Virus record (IMG/VR): IMGVR_UViG_3300031841_001169
Coordinates: 1 to 20,073 of that record
From: a virus
Length of the DNA stretch: 20,073 nt
Direction: 5' to 3' (one strand)
Positions 15,159 through 20,073 of the stretch are shown here, piece by piece. A program made the translations under genes and the position numbers. Numbering within the stretch: position 1 is the stretch's first letter; each line of letters starts with the position of its first letter. The notes below the pieces were generated by a model. That model did not search any database. It was not told where the DNA came from and was given only the letters and a program-made list of their open reading frames with translations.

Positions 15159-15602
15159 TTATATTTTTCCCCACTCCTTGCCTTCAAATAGTAGAGATTC
15201 CGCGTTTCTTCTCCTTACCAAACCTTCCAAAACTTTTCCGCCTGCTTTATTCCATCTTTGCATTTGCGCAGGCACTTCTTCGTATTCTTTATTATTTAAA
15301 ACTTTTAACATCGTAGACGCTTTTAAATTAGCTGGACCAAGATTAAATACCCAAGATACTAAAGCGTCGAATTGATTTTGGCTTAGATCCACTTCAACCA
15401 AATCGTTTATATATCCTTCGTACTCTTTCATCTCTTCTAATAAAAGATGATCAGCTTCTTCTTGGGTTATAGTATCGCCTTCTTTTACACCTTTAGTAGA
15501 ACCATATCCTATAGTCCAAACTCCTGCTGCACATTTATAAGCTTCAAGCTCGCAGCCTTCAAACTTCTTAATAAGGCAAAGACCTTCTTGAGATATATTC
15601 AT
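15159..15602 (-). CDS. Endolysin, lysozyme fold (T4/P22 type)
   Basis: A 147-aa muramidase that would cleave peptidoglycan at the end of infection. Visible motifs: IKKFEGCELEAY with catalytic E15, AGVWTIGYGST (T30 next), and the C-terminal WNKAGGKVLEGLVRRRNAE signature that closes this family. The usual second acidic residue after AY is replaced by Cys24 (AYKCAAG), a variant I recall in other lysozyme-like endolysins. I place the start at ATG 15602 because AAAGGAG lies 6 bases upstream and the ATG follows the holin gene's stop by one base. An in-frame ATG at 15671 would add 23 residues overlapping the holin gene and is less likely. No signal peptide, so it depends on the holin. Confidence 0.9.
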   Translation of the reverse strand: MNISQEGLCLIKKFEGCELEAYKCAAGVWTIGYGSTKGVKEGDTITQEEADHLLLEEMKEYEGYINDLVEVDLSQNQFDALVSWVFNLGPANLKASTMLKVLNNKEYEEVPAQMQRWNKAGGKVLEGLVRRRNAESLLFEGKEWGKI

Positions 15603-15603
15603 A

Positions 15604-16089
15604 TTAGTCTCCTTTGTCGCTTGAGTTAGAAGCTCCAAAATAAAACGAAATAATTGCGCTAGCCAATCCACCTAAATATCCTAATACTAAATTAATTAAA
15701 GCTTCTGAGTTTTGTTCTGGCGGTTGTAACGTAACCAAAAATATATAACCTAAAAAGCCACCTATAGTTGCTATACCAATTATTCTTGCAGTCCAGTCTT
15801 TAGAGAAGTAACCTCTAGCGTTTTCCTTTTCTTTTGCTTCTAAAGCAAAAATATCAACCTCAAGCTCTTTCATTTTTATTTCAAAATCTTTTTCAGCTTT
15901 TTTAAGTTGTAGCATTTGTTCTGGCGTAGCGTTTTGGATTGCTGCTTCAATAGACTTTGGATTGTTAGGAACTCCTAATACTTCGGATATCATATTTGCA
16001 GCCATACCGCCCATAGGTCCACCCAAAGCCGTACCAAGTGTAGGAGCTACTGCGCCTACAACGTTTTTTAATAATCCTTTAAATTTCAT
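15604..16089 (-). CDS. Holin-like protein (3-TM holin family)
   Basis: A 161-aa protein. It starts MKFKGLLKNVVGAVAPTLG, a hydrophobic glycine/alanine-rich segment to about residue 38, followed by a charged coiled region (PEQMLQLKKAEKDFEIKMKE to about 95). Two clear membrane helices follow near 104-121 (IIGIATIGGFLGYIFLV) and 131-150 (LINLVLGYLGGLASAIISF), and the protein ends FGASNSSDKGD. The order hydrophobic - coil - two helices - FGxS tail matches the holin_3TM family. It precedes the endolysin and overlaps the upstream 70-aa gene as ATGA. It would open the inner membrane to release endolysin. Confidence 0.75.
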   Translation of the reverse strand: MKFKGLLKNVVGAVAPTLGTALGGPMGGMAANMISEVLGVPNNPKSIEAAIQNATPEQMLQLKKAEKDFEIKMKELEVDIFALEAKEKENARGYFSKDWTARIIGIATIGGFLGYIFLVTLQPPEQNSEALINLVLGYLGGLASAIISFYFGASNSSDKGD

Positions 16090-16298
16090 AGTAGAACAGA
16101 TACCAAGGCTATAGCTAGAGCGCCTATAAAGCCAAATATTCCGAAGGTTGTCATTTTAATTGTATTGTTAATAGAAGCTATTTCGCTTTTTATCTCAGCA
16201 AATTCGTTGAACGCTGTCTTCCAACGCTCAGAACATTGAGCCTCATGCTTGGCAAGATCTGCCGCTACAGTTAGTGTGGTTGGTCTTTTTGTCGTCAT
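16086..16298 (-). CDS. Coil plus C-terminal TM protein, XhlA-like (lysis accessory)
   Basis: A 70-aa protein. Residues 8-48 form a predicted helix/coil (ADLAKHEAQCSERWKTAFNE, then IKSEIASINNTI) and residues 50-70 one membrane helix (TTFGIFGFIGALAIALVSVL) at the very end. This layout matches XhlA-type haemolysin/antiholin proteins and small phage lysis partners. It lies directly before the holin. Its ATG follows the cyclase stop codon with no base between, and no separate ribosome site is evident, so it may be translated by coupling to the cyclase gene. A Cys at 22 is notable but not in a lipobox. Confidence 0.6.
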   Translation of the reverse strand: MTTKRPTTLTVAADLAKHEAQCSERWKTAFNEFAEIKSEIASINNTIKMTTFGIFGFIGALAIALVSVLL

Positions 16299-18035
16299 TT
16301 ATATAGTATAAACCTTTAACGGTTTCTTTTTTCCTTTTACGTATATTTTTTTATGAAAAACACCATTTTGCGTTTTCTTAATTGTAGCCTCGCCAATTAG
16401 TATGTCAACACCAGCTTCTTTTGTTGCAGACTCAAGACGTGCTGCTGTATTTACCGCGTCACCTATAGCCGAATAATCAAATCTAGTATCACTACCCATA
16501 TTGCCAATAACTGCATATCCGGTATTTACGCCAATACCAATTTCAACACCGAGATCGGCCATTTTAATTTTATCTTGTATTTCTTTTGCGCAAAGAACCG
16601 CAGCCATTTCATGGTCAGGTATATCTATAGGTGCGTTAAATATTGCCATCATCGCATCACCAATATATTTATCTACCATACCATCATAAAACTTAACTGT
16701 ATCTGCTTGAATCGTTAAAGCCTTATTCATAATCTTGGTTACTTCTTCTGGTTCTAGTTTTTCTGATAAAGATGTAAAACCTCTAACGTCTGTAAATAAA
16801 AATGTGCAATATTTTTTCTCGCCTCCAAGTTTTAGTAACTCAGGATTGTCTTGTAATTGCTTCACTTGTCTTGGATCCAGATAATGTTCAAACTGTTTTT
16901 TAATCTCTTGACGTAGTTTATATTGTTTTTTGTAGTTTATATAGAAAGCAACGGTAGAAGTTATGATTTGAGATATAAAAGTCCATGAAAAATCCAATAA
17001 AATGCCCTTCTGAATGCTAAAAACGCCTGAGAAGCCCGTGGTGAAAAGCAAAATTACAGCAATACTTAGACCCTTAACCACACCAAGATAATTGATTGTG
17101 AGCCACGTCAGGGTGACAAAAATTCCCAAAATCAAAATTTCGGCTACTAAATGCCATTCTGGTATTCTTGGAGAGCTTTGGATGAGAATTGACTCAGATA
17201 ATGCTGCTTGAATTTTATGTGGCTCTAATAATCCTGCTGGAGTTGCAACTTGAGGCATAATTCCAGGAGCAGTTATTCCAAGAAAAACAAACTTACCTTC
17301 TACATCCATTTCTTGTAAATTGGTTTCTGGAGTTTTTACCCAACTAATCCACTTGCGGCCAAGACTATCAGTTTTAACCGGGGGTAATCCTTGAACAGTA
17401 ATTTCTTCAATACCAAGTTCGTTGGTTTTAATAATATAAGTTTTTGCACCTACTAAACTTTTTAATACTTCTGTACCAAAGGAACTTACGTATCCGTCTG
17501 GGGTTCTAAACAATAAAGGGATTCTTCTAACAAGGTTATCAAGATCGGTGGGTGCAGCAGATATACCTTCTTGTATATAGTCGTTTCTAAGGTTGTTGGT
17601 ATTTTGTACCACACCCTTTGCTAGCATACCACCAACATCAGGACCTTTGATGACCGTACCAACTGTTTTTGGGTATATTTTATTTGGGTATTCAAATGAA
17701 GCTAAAATAGATGTACCATATTTTAAAGACTCTGCAAAAAATCTATCTCCCCCAAACCTATCAGGATGTGGAAAACTAACAACCCAACCTACACCTAACG
17801 CACCTTTTTCTATTAGTTCTGCATGTATATTACCAAGTTTTTGTCTGGGTATAGGCCAACCGCCTTCTGCGTCTATATCTTCTTCGGTAATATTTAAAAT
17901 AGTAAAGTAGCCAGATGGTTCTGGCGTTTGAACAAAAGCGTCAAATATTTTAAGTTTTAATATTTCGGTAGGCGTACTTTGAAATATTAAAGGTAATCCC
18001 AGTATTATAAGTATTGGTAATAATAATTTATTCAT
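16299..18035 (-). CDS. CHASE2-domain class III adenylate cyclase
   Basis: A 578-aa inner-membrane sensor enzyme predicted to make cAMP from ATP. One N-terminal membrane helix (3-18) is followed by a CHASE2 periplasmic sensor (about 28-290; typical GGWPIPRQKLGNI and GKFVFLGITAPG). Three membrane helices follow near 297-318, 321-340 and 350-367, then a linker and the cyclase domain from about 405. The cyclase keeps both metal aspartates (D416 in FTDVRGFT, D460 in YIGDAMMA), the adenine-specifying pair K456 and D520, and the transition-state pair N529 and R533 (VNTAARLES). By these residues it should use ATP rather than GTP. It starts 8 bases after the FecR gene, without a clear ribosome site. 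Its stop abuts the ATG of the lysis accessory gene. Bacterial CHASE2-cyclases often neighbour FecR-domain genes (from memory). I know of no described phage case. Confidence 0.92.
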   Translation of the reverse strand: MNKLLLPILIILGLPLIFQSTPTEILKLKIFDAFVQTPEPSGYFTILNITEEDIDAEGGWPIPRQKLGNIHAELIEKGALGVGWVVSFPHPDRFGGDRFFAESLKYGTSILASFEYPNKIYPKTVGTVIKGPDVGGMLAKGVVQNTNNLRNDYIQEGISAAPTDLDNLVRRIPLLFRTPDGYVSSFGTEVLKSLVGAKTYIIKTNELGIEEITVQGLPPVKTDSLGRKWISWVKTPETNLQEMDVEGKFVFLGITAPGIMPQVATPAGLLEPHKIQAALSESILIQSSPRIPEWHLVAEILILGIFVTLTWLTINYLGVVKGLSIAVILLFTTGFSGVFSIQKGILLDFSWTFISQIITSTVAFYINYKKQYKLRQEIKKQFEHYLDPRQVKQLQDNPELLKLGGEKKYCTFLFTDVRGFTSLSEKLEPEEVTKIMNKALTIQADTVKFYDGMVDKYIGDAMMAIFNAPIDIPDHEMAAVLCAKEIQDKIKMADLGVEIGIGVNTGYAVIGNMGSDTRFDYSAIGDAVNTAARLESATKEAGVDILIGEATIKKTQNGVFHKKIYVKGKKKPLKVYTI

Positions 18036-18043
18036 ATTATTTA

Positions 18044-19234
18044 TTAATTACTTTGGGTTATTTTTATTGTACTACCCGTTCCTCCGTTTACTTTTATTAT
18101 TCTAGATACGCCATCTTGAATAAAAATAACAGTATAGCTACCAGATGAATCTATATCTACTCTAGCAGTATCGCTAACACTTCTCATCAAAGTAAGTATT
18201 TCTCCGGTTACGTAAGATGTAATCTGCGTATTTAAGTCCTGGCCTAAATTAGTACCAACTAAATTTATAGATGTAGCATCTTGGGCCAACTGATCTTCTT
18301 GTTTTATTTCTTGTAAAGCATCTATAACATCTAGTAAATCTTCTAAAAAGTTTACGTCAAGATAATTTATATCTAACTCGGTAAATTCTAGTTCGTCTTC
18401 TTTAAAAAAATCTTCTTCTAAGTAATCTATATCTAAGTCGTCAAAGTCTAAAATGTTTTTCTTTTGCGTTTGTACTGTTTCTTCTAAAACGGCTTCTTCT
18501 TTAGGCGGATTTACGATTAGCATATTGTCAATAATATCTAACGTAAGATCTAAAATAACAGGAGAGCTTGGAGATTTTTCAAATACGTCTACGGTTGTAG
18601 CTTCGTAAGGCTTGTTTAAAGTAACAGTTCCCATCGCAGTTGTTACCAATATTTCGCCGCTAGCGTTACCAAATTCATCTGGTAAAAGTATTAACAAACT
18701 ACGGCCTGTTTCATCTACAGTAACTGTAAAGTCTGTTCCTCTGATTGCTATATTAGCGGTAGGAGTCTTAAGGTCTATGTTAGACTTATCTATCTTATTT
18801 AAAGAACCAGTAATAAATCTAGCCGTACCCAAACCAAAGGTGATAGCCATTTTAGATTTACTAGGATTTGGGTCAAAGATATATTCATCTATTGTTAGTT
18901 GAGAATGTTCCGTTAATTTTACTTTTGAGTCATCTAAAAACGTAATAGCCATACGACCATTCGTTGTTACAGCCTCATCGTTTTGTTGGATGTCAAAATC
19001 CAACTCGGCATTATACGGTTTTTCTCTTAAAACTCTAGCAGAACCTGAGAGTTCAGATATGTTTCCTACATCAACAGCTGGTTGTTGTTCCGCCGTCGTT
19101 TTGAACGACACAAATAGTACCGTTAGAACCAGTAGAGTCAATTCGTAACCAGTCTGCTGCAAGCGTTGACGATTGGGTGATATTAAATGTTCTGCTGTTA
19201 CCTGTTTGGTCGAGGTAGAAATATCCGCCTGCAT
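18044..19234 (-). CDS. FecR-domain periplasmic protein with acidic repeat linker
   Basis: A hydrophobic signal/anchor (ELTLLVLTVLFVSF, 31-44) precedes a FecR domain at about 55-175: GNISELSGSARVLR, then RMAITFLDDSKVKLTEHSQL, and the family signature TPTANIAIRGTDFTVTV. A linker at 261-302 is acidic and contains two 20-residue units (FDDLDIDYLEEDFF and FTELDINYLDVNFL). The C-terminus (about 325-396) is beta-rich and ends GTGSTIKITQSN. FecR domains sit in the periplasm and relay envelope signals; bacterial versions often pair with CHASE2-cyclases. The start is uncertain. ATG 19234 (AGGA about 7 bases upstream) overlaps the curlin-like gene by 164 bases in another frame. TTG at 19141 or GTG at 19111 would shorten the N-terminus. 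All choices place the hydrophobic segment within, or cut it at, the overlap. Confidence 0.8.
   Translation of the reverse strand: MQADISTSTKQVTAEHLISPNRQRLQQTGYELTLLVLTVLFVSFKTTAEQQPAVDVGNISELSGSARVLREKPYNAELDFDIQQNDEAVTTNGRMAITFLDDSKVKLTEHSQLTIDEYIFDPNPSKSKMAITFGLGTARFITGSLNKIDKSNIDLKTPTANIAIRGTDFTVTVDETGRSLLILLPDEFGNASGEILVTTAMGTVTLNKPYEATTVDVFEKSPSSPVILDLTLDIIDNMLIVNPPKEEAVLEETVQTQKKNILDFDDLDIDYLEEDFFKEDELEFTELDINYLDVNFLEDLLDVIDALQEIKQEDQLAQDATSINLVGTNLGQDLNTQITSYVTGEILTLMRSVSDTARVDIDSSGSYTVIFIQDGVSRIIKVNGGTGSTIKITQSN
18332..18454 (-). repeat. Acidic 20-residue tandem repeat within the FecR protein
   Basis: This stretch encodes residues 261-301 of the FecR-domain protein. FDDLDIDYLEEDFF (264-277) and FTELDINYLDVNFL (284-297) are two copies in register 20 residues apart, with a core LDI(D/N)YL. 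The segment holds Asp/Glu plus large hydrophobics and almost no basic residue. It could bind Ca2+ or a partner protein. Confidence 0.75.
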
Positions 19235-19805
19235 ATCCGCTTCCTGTAAAGTTTATTGTATTGCTATCTCCGTCTACATCAACATAATTAGTAGCACCAT
19301 CATAGTTTATATCAAAATCAAATGTGTTGCTGTCGCCGTTAATTATCCAGTCTAAATCAAGATTTGAAGCTAAAGCACTTGTACCCACATCTAACGTAAA
19401 TGTGTTAGAGCTTCCAGTAACATCAACATTGAAATCAGAACTGTCTATTCCATAAGTATCTGTTGGATCTCCTTGTATAGTAAAAGTATTACTATCGCCG
19501 TCAAACTCAAAAAAACCAGTAATATTATCGCCTAGGATGTCACCCAAGAATTTATTAGTATTACCTATTTGGTTTATATCTAGCGTTAAACTCAAACCGT
19601 CTAAATCTAGAGCGGTAAGCGTACCTGCGACAGAGTTAAGACCACCTATAATATTAGATGAGCCTAATTGCTCTAAATCTATATTTGCTGTTGCTCCGGA
19701 CTGCTCAACATATATTTCGTTATCTGCAGAATAAGCAGATAATCCAAAAAAAGTTAGTCCTAATATACCGTAGTAACTTACTACTCCTATATCATTTTTA
19801 TTCAT
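19071..19805 (-). CDS. Curlin-like extracellular repeat protein (putative amyloid fibre subunit)
   Basis: A 244-aa secreted protein. A signal peptide spans 1-26/27 (VVSYYGILGLTFFGLSAYSA, cleavage before DNEI). The first part has curlin-type QxGxxN units: VEQSGATAN, LEQLGSSN and INQIGNTN. From residue 102 a related unit GDSNTF recurs (DGDSNTF 102, TGSSNTF 130, NGDSNTF 156, DGDSNTI 178, TGNSRTF 201) at 22-28 residue spacing. These Asn-ladder repeats fit a stacked beta-solenoid/amyloid. Two cysteines (C232, C244) flank the end (GTICVVQNDGGTTTSC). It would leave the cell through the CsgG pore. The ATG overlaps the csgG stop by 8 bases, with GGA upstream, so the two are probably coupled. The 3' 164 bases overlap the FecR ORF. 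The curlin relationship rests on repeat pattern and csgG linkage. Confidence 0.75.
   Translation of the reverse strand: MNKNDIGVVSYYGILGLTFFGLSAYSADNEIYVEQSGATANIDLEQLGSSNIIGGLNSVAGTLTALDLDGLSLTLDINQIGNTNKFLGDILGDNITGFFEFDGDSNTFTIQGDPTDTYGIDSSDFNVDVTGSSNTFTLDVGTSALASNLDLDWIINGDSNTFDFDINYDGATNYVDVDGDSNTINFTGSGYAGGYFYLDQTGNSRTFNITQSSTLAADWLRIDSTGSNGTICVVQNDGGTTTSC
19185..19502 (-). repeat. Five GDSNTF-type coding repeats
   Basis: On the plus strand, variants of AAATGTGTTGCTGTCGCC recur at about 19485-19502, 19400-19416, 19319-19337, 19257-19272 and 19186-19202, encoding (G)(D/S/N)S(N/R)T(F/I). Spacing is 66-84 bases. They form the repeating body of the curlin-like protein. Confidence 0.75.
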
Positions 19806-20073
19806 ATATCTTCCAATATCCCTTTGTTGTTCCTTCTTTTATTGTTTGTAATACAGCTGTTTCTATAGCTGTTTGTAAGGCAATATTAATAGATTCGTTT
19901 CTAACTAAACCGTTCTCTATTTCAACAAGCTCTGTTGAATCGGTTATAAACCTAAACACATCTTGATCAATAGATGCACTTAATATTGTTTTGGTTACGA
20001 GAACCTCTAGCAGCACTTTGCCGGTACTGACGGAAACTGTTCGTAAGGATATGGTAACGGTATCTTGTTTGTA
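19798..20073 (-). CDS. csgG: CsgG-like curli secretion channel, C-terminal part (runs off the right edge)
   Basis: The minus strand is open from the window edge to the TAA at 19798 and gives 91 residues. They align by eye with the end of E. coli CsgG: TVTISLRTVSVSTGKVL against its AVNLRVVNVSTGEIL region, TKTILS, then VFRFI, NESINIALQTAIETAV against its NEPVMLCLMSAIETGV, and EGTTKGYW against DGIDRGLW. CsgG is the nonameric outer-membrane lipoprotein pore of type VIII secretion. The part seen corresponds to the end of the transmembrane-hairpin and periplasmic domain. It lacks the charged extension that E. coli CsgG has after the final Trp. The N-terminus and lipobox lie beyond the window. Confidence 0.9.
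   Translation of the reverse strand, partial: YKQDTVTISLRTVSVSTGKVLLEVLVTKTILSASIDQDVFRFITDSTELVEIENGLVRNESINIALQTAIETAVLQTIKEGTTKGYWKIYE

Follow-up and report, generated by a model that had tools for sequence, protein, structure and literature searches.

What is known of phages and cyclic nucleotides mostly concerns the destruction or sensing of these molecules. A type VIII secretion (T8SS, curli) module with FecR and an adenylate cyclase (AC) was described in 2022 in HTVC023P-type podophages and pelagimyophages (PMC9599517). The same paper reports that the module is expressed in ocean metatranscriptomes, that its tree favors an origin in Alphaproteobacteria, and that the module was transferred between phage families. 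Annotated cyclases are also present in the cultured myophages HTVC008M (SAR11) and Melnitz (a Methylophilales phage; OM43), where the last gene of the curli module encodes a protein with a CHASE2 and a class III cyclase domain. Among bacteria, Campylobacterota have CHASE2 cyclases in gene clusters that also contain FecR, TPR and phosphodiesterase genes (PMC9239204), and in magnetotactic bacteria the gene after mtxA codes for a CHASE2 cyclase (PMC4439547). Unlike the phage enzymes, bacterial CHASE2 cyclases (PMC9239204; Sinorhizobium CyaD1, PMC5498481) are cellular genes in organisms with CRP-type receptors.

We analyzed a stretch of 20,073 nucleotides from the IMG/VR virus record IMGVR_UViG_3300031841_001169 (hereafter the window), in which CsgG, curlin-repeat and FecR genes adjoin a CHASE2 cyclase, i.e., a T8SS module with the same order of CsgG, CsgA/B, FecR and AC as in HTVC023P-type podophages. 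However, the window genome is a distinct lineage, the second curlin gene between FecR and AC of the published module is absent, and the position of that module's upstream "histidine kinase" lies outside the window. The HTVC008M and Melnitz cyclases are about 33% identical to the window's, and these two phages likewise have an extra curlin-like gene between FecR and AC that the window does not have. Bacterial CHASE2-FecR cyclase clusters share the CHASE2-TM-cyclase architecture and, in some cases, the FecR neighbor, while plasmid-borne rhizobial CHASE2 cyclases are 23-30% identical to the window's. A preliminary description of the window considered a cAMP-producing phage unusual, which no longer holds: hundreds of viral contigs encode relatives of the window cyclase, and it belongs to a published kind, since the module with FecR and AC was described in 2022 (PMC9599517). 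What remains of interest is that a widespread marine phage family apparently produces cAMP downstream of a membrane sensor coupled to the curli pore, that in podophage members this sensor is also coupled to lysis genes, and that the CRP-type receiver is missing in SAR11-type hosts, which turns the receiver into a sharp, testable question.

Domain architecture and catalytic residues

The cyclase gene (16299..18035, minus strand) is a real, uninterrupted ORF of 578 aa with the coordinates first given for it, and domain and homologue evidence identify it as a CHASE2-class IIIb adenylate cyclase. Pfam profile searches place a CHASE2 sensor domain at residues 14-306 (17118..17996, minus strand; PF05226, E 1.1e-24, 87.8 bits against a curated cut-off of 26.3) and a class III catalytic domain at residues 408-577 (16305..16814, minus strand; PF00211, Guanylate_cyc, E 3.7e-18, 66.2 bits against a curated cut-off of 21.9). 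The hydropathy profile has a hydrophobic N-terminal anchor and hydrophobic segments at about residues 291-342, and AlphaFold places helices 295-317, 319-342 and 350-383 between the two domains, giving three transmembrane/linker helices at residues 295-383 (16887..17153, minus strand). The CHASE2 domain and transmembrane helices thus precede the effector domain as in CHASE2 receptors, and the topology predicted from hydropathy and AlphaFold2 puts the CHASE2 domain in the periplasm, in agreement with the membrane-sensor layout proposed earlier. The AlphaFold model has a mean pLDDT of 77, and low values around residues 512-527 mean that the active-site loop is poorly modelled. The nearest solved homologues of the cyclase domain are Cya2 (2w01), CyaB (3r5g) and CyaC (1wc0); Foldseek found no whole-length solved homologue, and the listed matches span the cyclase domain only.

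Six catalytic residues had been proposed for this enzyme, including a Lys/Asp pair that specifies ATP. Five of them stand (D416, K456, D460, N529 and R533), among them the two metal-binding Asp (D416 and D460), the transition-state N529 and the R533 that define class III cyclases, but D520 is replaced by S522 in the catalytic set. The substrate-selecting residue of class III cyclases lies seven positions before the transition-state Asn (D1018 and N1025 in mammalian AC). In the window cyclase this position is S522, while D520 lies nine before N529, and alignment with CyaB agrees on S522 (3r5g 'rmdyTiigrevN' against 'rfdySaigdavN' in the window). Both the spacing and the alignment led us to reject D520 as the substrate-specifying Asp. 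K456 is therefore paired with S522 and not with the Asp of class IIIa, and the same position holds Ser in 53 and Thr in 27 of 80 podophage relatives. Lys with Ser/Thr is the class IIIb pattern, and class IIIb enzymes use ATP. Accordingly, Ser522 assigns the window enzyme to class IIIb, and the ATP-type specificity suggested earlier is still predicted, now through the Lys/Ser pattern.

Gene neighborhood

The cyclase closes the CsgG/curlin-repeat/FecR block, and a probable lysis cassette abuts it downstream without a gap. Neither the three genes directly upstream nor this cassette had been recognized in the preliminary description. The gene for the FecR-domain protein (18044..19234, minus strand; PF04773, E 8.7e-10) stops 8 nt ahead of the cyclase start. 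Since its ORF overlaps the curlin gene, the true FecR start may be downstream of the listed ATG. The curlin-repeat (CsgA/B-like) protein (19071..19805, minus strand) has no Pfam match and was identified from its position, from homologues between CsgG and FecR, and from the annotation of the same slot in HTVC008M and Melnitz. The contig end cuts csgG, leaving its 3' part (19798..20073, minus strand; PF03783, E 4.6e-15). CsgF lies upstream of csgG in the related locus L012, and the relatives suggest that csgF and further upstream genes would also belong to the window module.

Downstream, a 70 aa single-TM protein (16086..16298, minus strand) with a weak function-unknown PHROG match starts on the base that adjoins the cyclase stop, and its gene overlaps the cyclase by ATGA in many relatives. 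It is followed by a 161 aa protein (15604..16089, minus strand) with C-terminal hydrophobic segments and a match to phrog_1544 (function unknown), whose place ahead of the lysozyme makes it a probable holin-like lysis protein, and by the phage lysozyme (endolysin) itself (15159..15671, minus strand; PF00959, E 1.1e-50). The minus-strand gene run around the cyclase is unbroken, with intergenic gaps of a few bases. The earlier wording "late operon" is fair with respect to this run, but promoter and terminator scans of the window gave nothing clearly exceeding shuffles and do not inform on it. The Rfam scan was also uninformative.

Wherever the flank exists, the 80 podophage loci show the genes in the order CsgG, curlin, FecR, AC. 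Among podophage loci whose upstream flank reaches 700 bp or more, all 69 have a FecR gene on the same strand before the cyclase (a strict test finds 65, and the remaining four are truncated FecR ORFs). The FecR-to-AC spacing is 440-673 bp in a few loci. FecR also precedes the cyclase in cultured Melnitz and, by similarity, in HTVC008M. Short genes before csgF in two related loci (L012:3383-3733 and L086:2405-2973) encode proteins of 91-116 aa with an N-terminal hydrophobic stretch and no Pfam match, and two of three examined pre-csgF proteins have weak PHROG holin similarity (E 0.0003-0.001). If these are the same genes as in the 2022 paper, the "histidine kinase" label used there may be wrong.

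Phage identity and relatives

Genes for a primase, a virion stabilisation protein and the lysozyme on the same virus record confirm the phage setting. A DNA-level search of the whole window against phage records gave no match. The window stabilisation protein is 42% identical to that of DSL-LC04 and 31-36% to those of Roseobacter CRP-901/902 and HTVC023P/027P (31-33% for the latter pair). The terminase and DNA polymerase genes lie outside the window, and the terminase comparison was made via the syntenic relative G003, whose terminase is 57-61% identical to those of HTVC023P, HTVC027P, 023Pt and DSL-LC04. As judged from protein similarity, the window phage appears to be an HTVC023P-like podophage, broadly defined.

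A second podophage type (L009, L012 and L013) has a different portal, holin and endolysin, and its portal is 41-46% identical to those of Sinorhizobium phage phiM5 and Manatee Spring phages. Its cyclases share 81-82% identity with the window's, so the cassette has also been transferred among podophage lineages. This adds a further phage lineage with a closely similar curli-FecR-cyclase module to the two that the 2022 paper covered. Matches labelled Acinetobacter phage MD-2021a in the phage collection cover the cyclase domain only.

A tree of CHASE2 cyclases had been suggested as a way to find the donor lineage. Our tree separates all phage copies and four MAG contigs from 30 alphaproteobacterial CHASE2 cyclases (SH-aLRT 99), with a cellular sample of Alphaproteobacteria only. 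It groups the phage copies but fixes neither root nor donor, and the closest alphaproteobacterial enzymes in the sample group apart from them. The outcome that would have spoken against a phage gene, i.e., placement inside a host's own locus with no other phage-borne members, did not occur, as there are many phage-borne relatives. A genome-contig scan found phage-type cyclases on five MAG contigs (L086-L090; Pelagibacter, Neomarinimicrobiota and Flavobacteriaceae). These were rejected as donors because the tree groups the four cyclases entered in it with the phage copies, and because phage curli/FecR genes are present on the Pelagibacter and Neomarinimicrobiota contigs. The cyclase-bearing MAG contigs are likely phage contigs or binning contamination.

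Conservation and selection

From the hundreds of viral contigs with relatives, 80 close podophage relatives were kept for comparison. The two metal Asp and the catalytic Lys, Asn and Arg are invariant in 80/80 of these, and the same positions are invariant in 79-80 of 80 HTVC008M-type relatives (all readable ones). Full-gene dN/dS of the window cyclase is 0.14-0.19, about 0.15, in the more diverged pairs (80-91% identity), and by this measure the cyclase of the window's clade is under strong purifying selection. With its invariant catalytic positions and this selection, the window cyclase looks intact and apparently active, as first proposed. Between the window and L004, dS is 0.56 in the cyclase half (16299-16814) but 0.20 in the CHASE2 half, which suggests domain-level recombination among phages. 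The Melnitz-type cyclases (L235-L314) differ from the window (S522, N529) in having Asp at the substrate position and Ser replacing the transition-state Asn in 78 of 79 aligned sequences. This substitution is consistent within the family, and their activity may differ or be lost.

cAMP receivers in SAR11

Receivers were sampled in one host group, SAR11 (117 Pelagibacterales genomes), which the cultured relatives HTVC008M, HTVC023P and HTVC027P infect. HTH_Crp_2 was above cut-off in none of the 117 genomes. Domains that bind cNMP occur in eight of them, and the two proteins that were read combine them with an acyltransferase or an ABC/C39 exporter, without a DNA-binding domain. A class III cyclase was present in one genome, on a contig also bearing phage genes, and no cellular class III cyclase was found among the 117. 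Nor was a cNMP-binding domain found in 16 cyclase-bearing phage records (two complete, most fragments). With SAR11 as host, the cyclase would send a signal for which no receiver is recognized, though the window phage's own host may differ.

Proposed function and alternative explanations

The domain make-up, the intact catalytic residues, the purifying selection, the gene order and the shared descent with phage copies can all be read from the sequence. On this basis, we consider it fairly probable that the cyclase is the last gene of an HTVC023P-like podophage curli module in which FecR senses the envelope via the CHASE2 cyclase. The FecR protein would be exported to the periplasm or outer membrane, monitor the condition of the envelope or curli export, and signal to the CHASE2 domain in the periplasm. 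In the cytoplasm, the cyclase dimer would then convert ATP to cAMP, which would report the envelope signal to whichever receiver the host has, with curli expression, host physiology or lysis timing as the response. That FecR feeds the CHASE2 sensor is inferred from the bacterial FecR-CHASE2 clusters (PMC9239204) and the CHASE2 cyclase following mtxA (PMC4439547). Against such a unit, a FecR relative (phage-built profile) lies near only 3 of 20 alphaproteobacterial CHASE2 cyclases, whose other neighbors are type I secretion or TonB genes. A bolder and rather doubtful proposal is that these phages supply an entire envelope-sensing cAMP generator to hosts with neither cyclase nor CRP-type receiver, and that an unrecognized host or phage cAMP receptor exists.

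The output could instead be lysis timing, with FecR/CHASE2 sensing the envelope (e.g., the CsgG pore) and cAMP delaying or triggering the adjoining lysis genes. The 70 aa gene directly after the cyclase stop, its ATGA overlap in many relatives and the lysozyme that follows fit this, as do the holin (phrog_3427) and M15 endolysin genes after the cyclase of the unrelated podophage type and the lysis role proposed for the CsgGF pore (PMC9004378). However, the adjacency may reflect shared late expression alone, and the annotation of the myophages HTVC008M and Melnitz has no lysis gene beside the module. We also know of no cAMP-responsive lysis factor, and this role, though a credible alternative given the close gene linkage, seems improbable. 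The preliminary description had cAMP driving host CRP-type regulation toward carbon uptake late in infection. Class III cyclases normally feed CRP-family regulators, CHASE2 cyclases occur in 167 of 289 alphaproteobacterial genomes, and the window phage could have a CRP-bearing host. Nothing ties the window cyclase to carbon uptake, however, and the route is unlikely if the host is SAR11, given no CRP-type receptor in the 117 genomes and no DNA-binding domain in the two cNMP-binding proteins that were read; overall, we find it decidedly unlikely.

An inactive cyclase, kept as a relic or scaffold, would agree with the poorly modelled active-site loop and the loss of the transition-state Asn in Melnitz-type relatives, but is very hard to reconcile with the complete catalytic set and the strong purifying selection on the window's own clade. 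CHASE2 cyclases are common in bacteria and the record is a 20 kb linear fragment, so the contig might be a bacterial locus or chimera. This is largely refuted and hardly credible: virion, primase and lysozyme genes share the contig with the cyclase, hundreds of viral contigs encode relatives (with a common gene order in the 80 kept), and the tree nests the window cyclase among the phage copies, apart from the alphaproteobacterial ones. Of the latter, several (L135-L154) adjoin HlyD/OEP type I secretion or TonB receptor genes, hinting that CHASE2 cyclases may be linked more widely to surface secretion.
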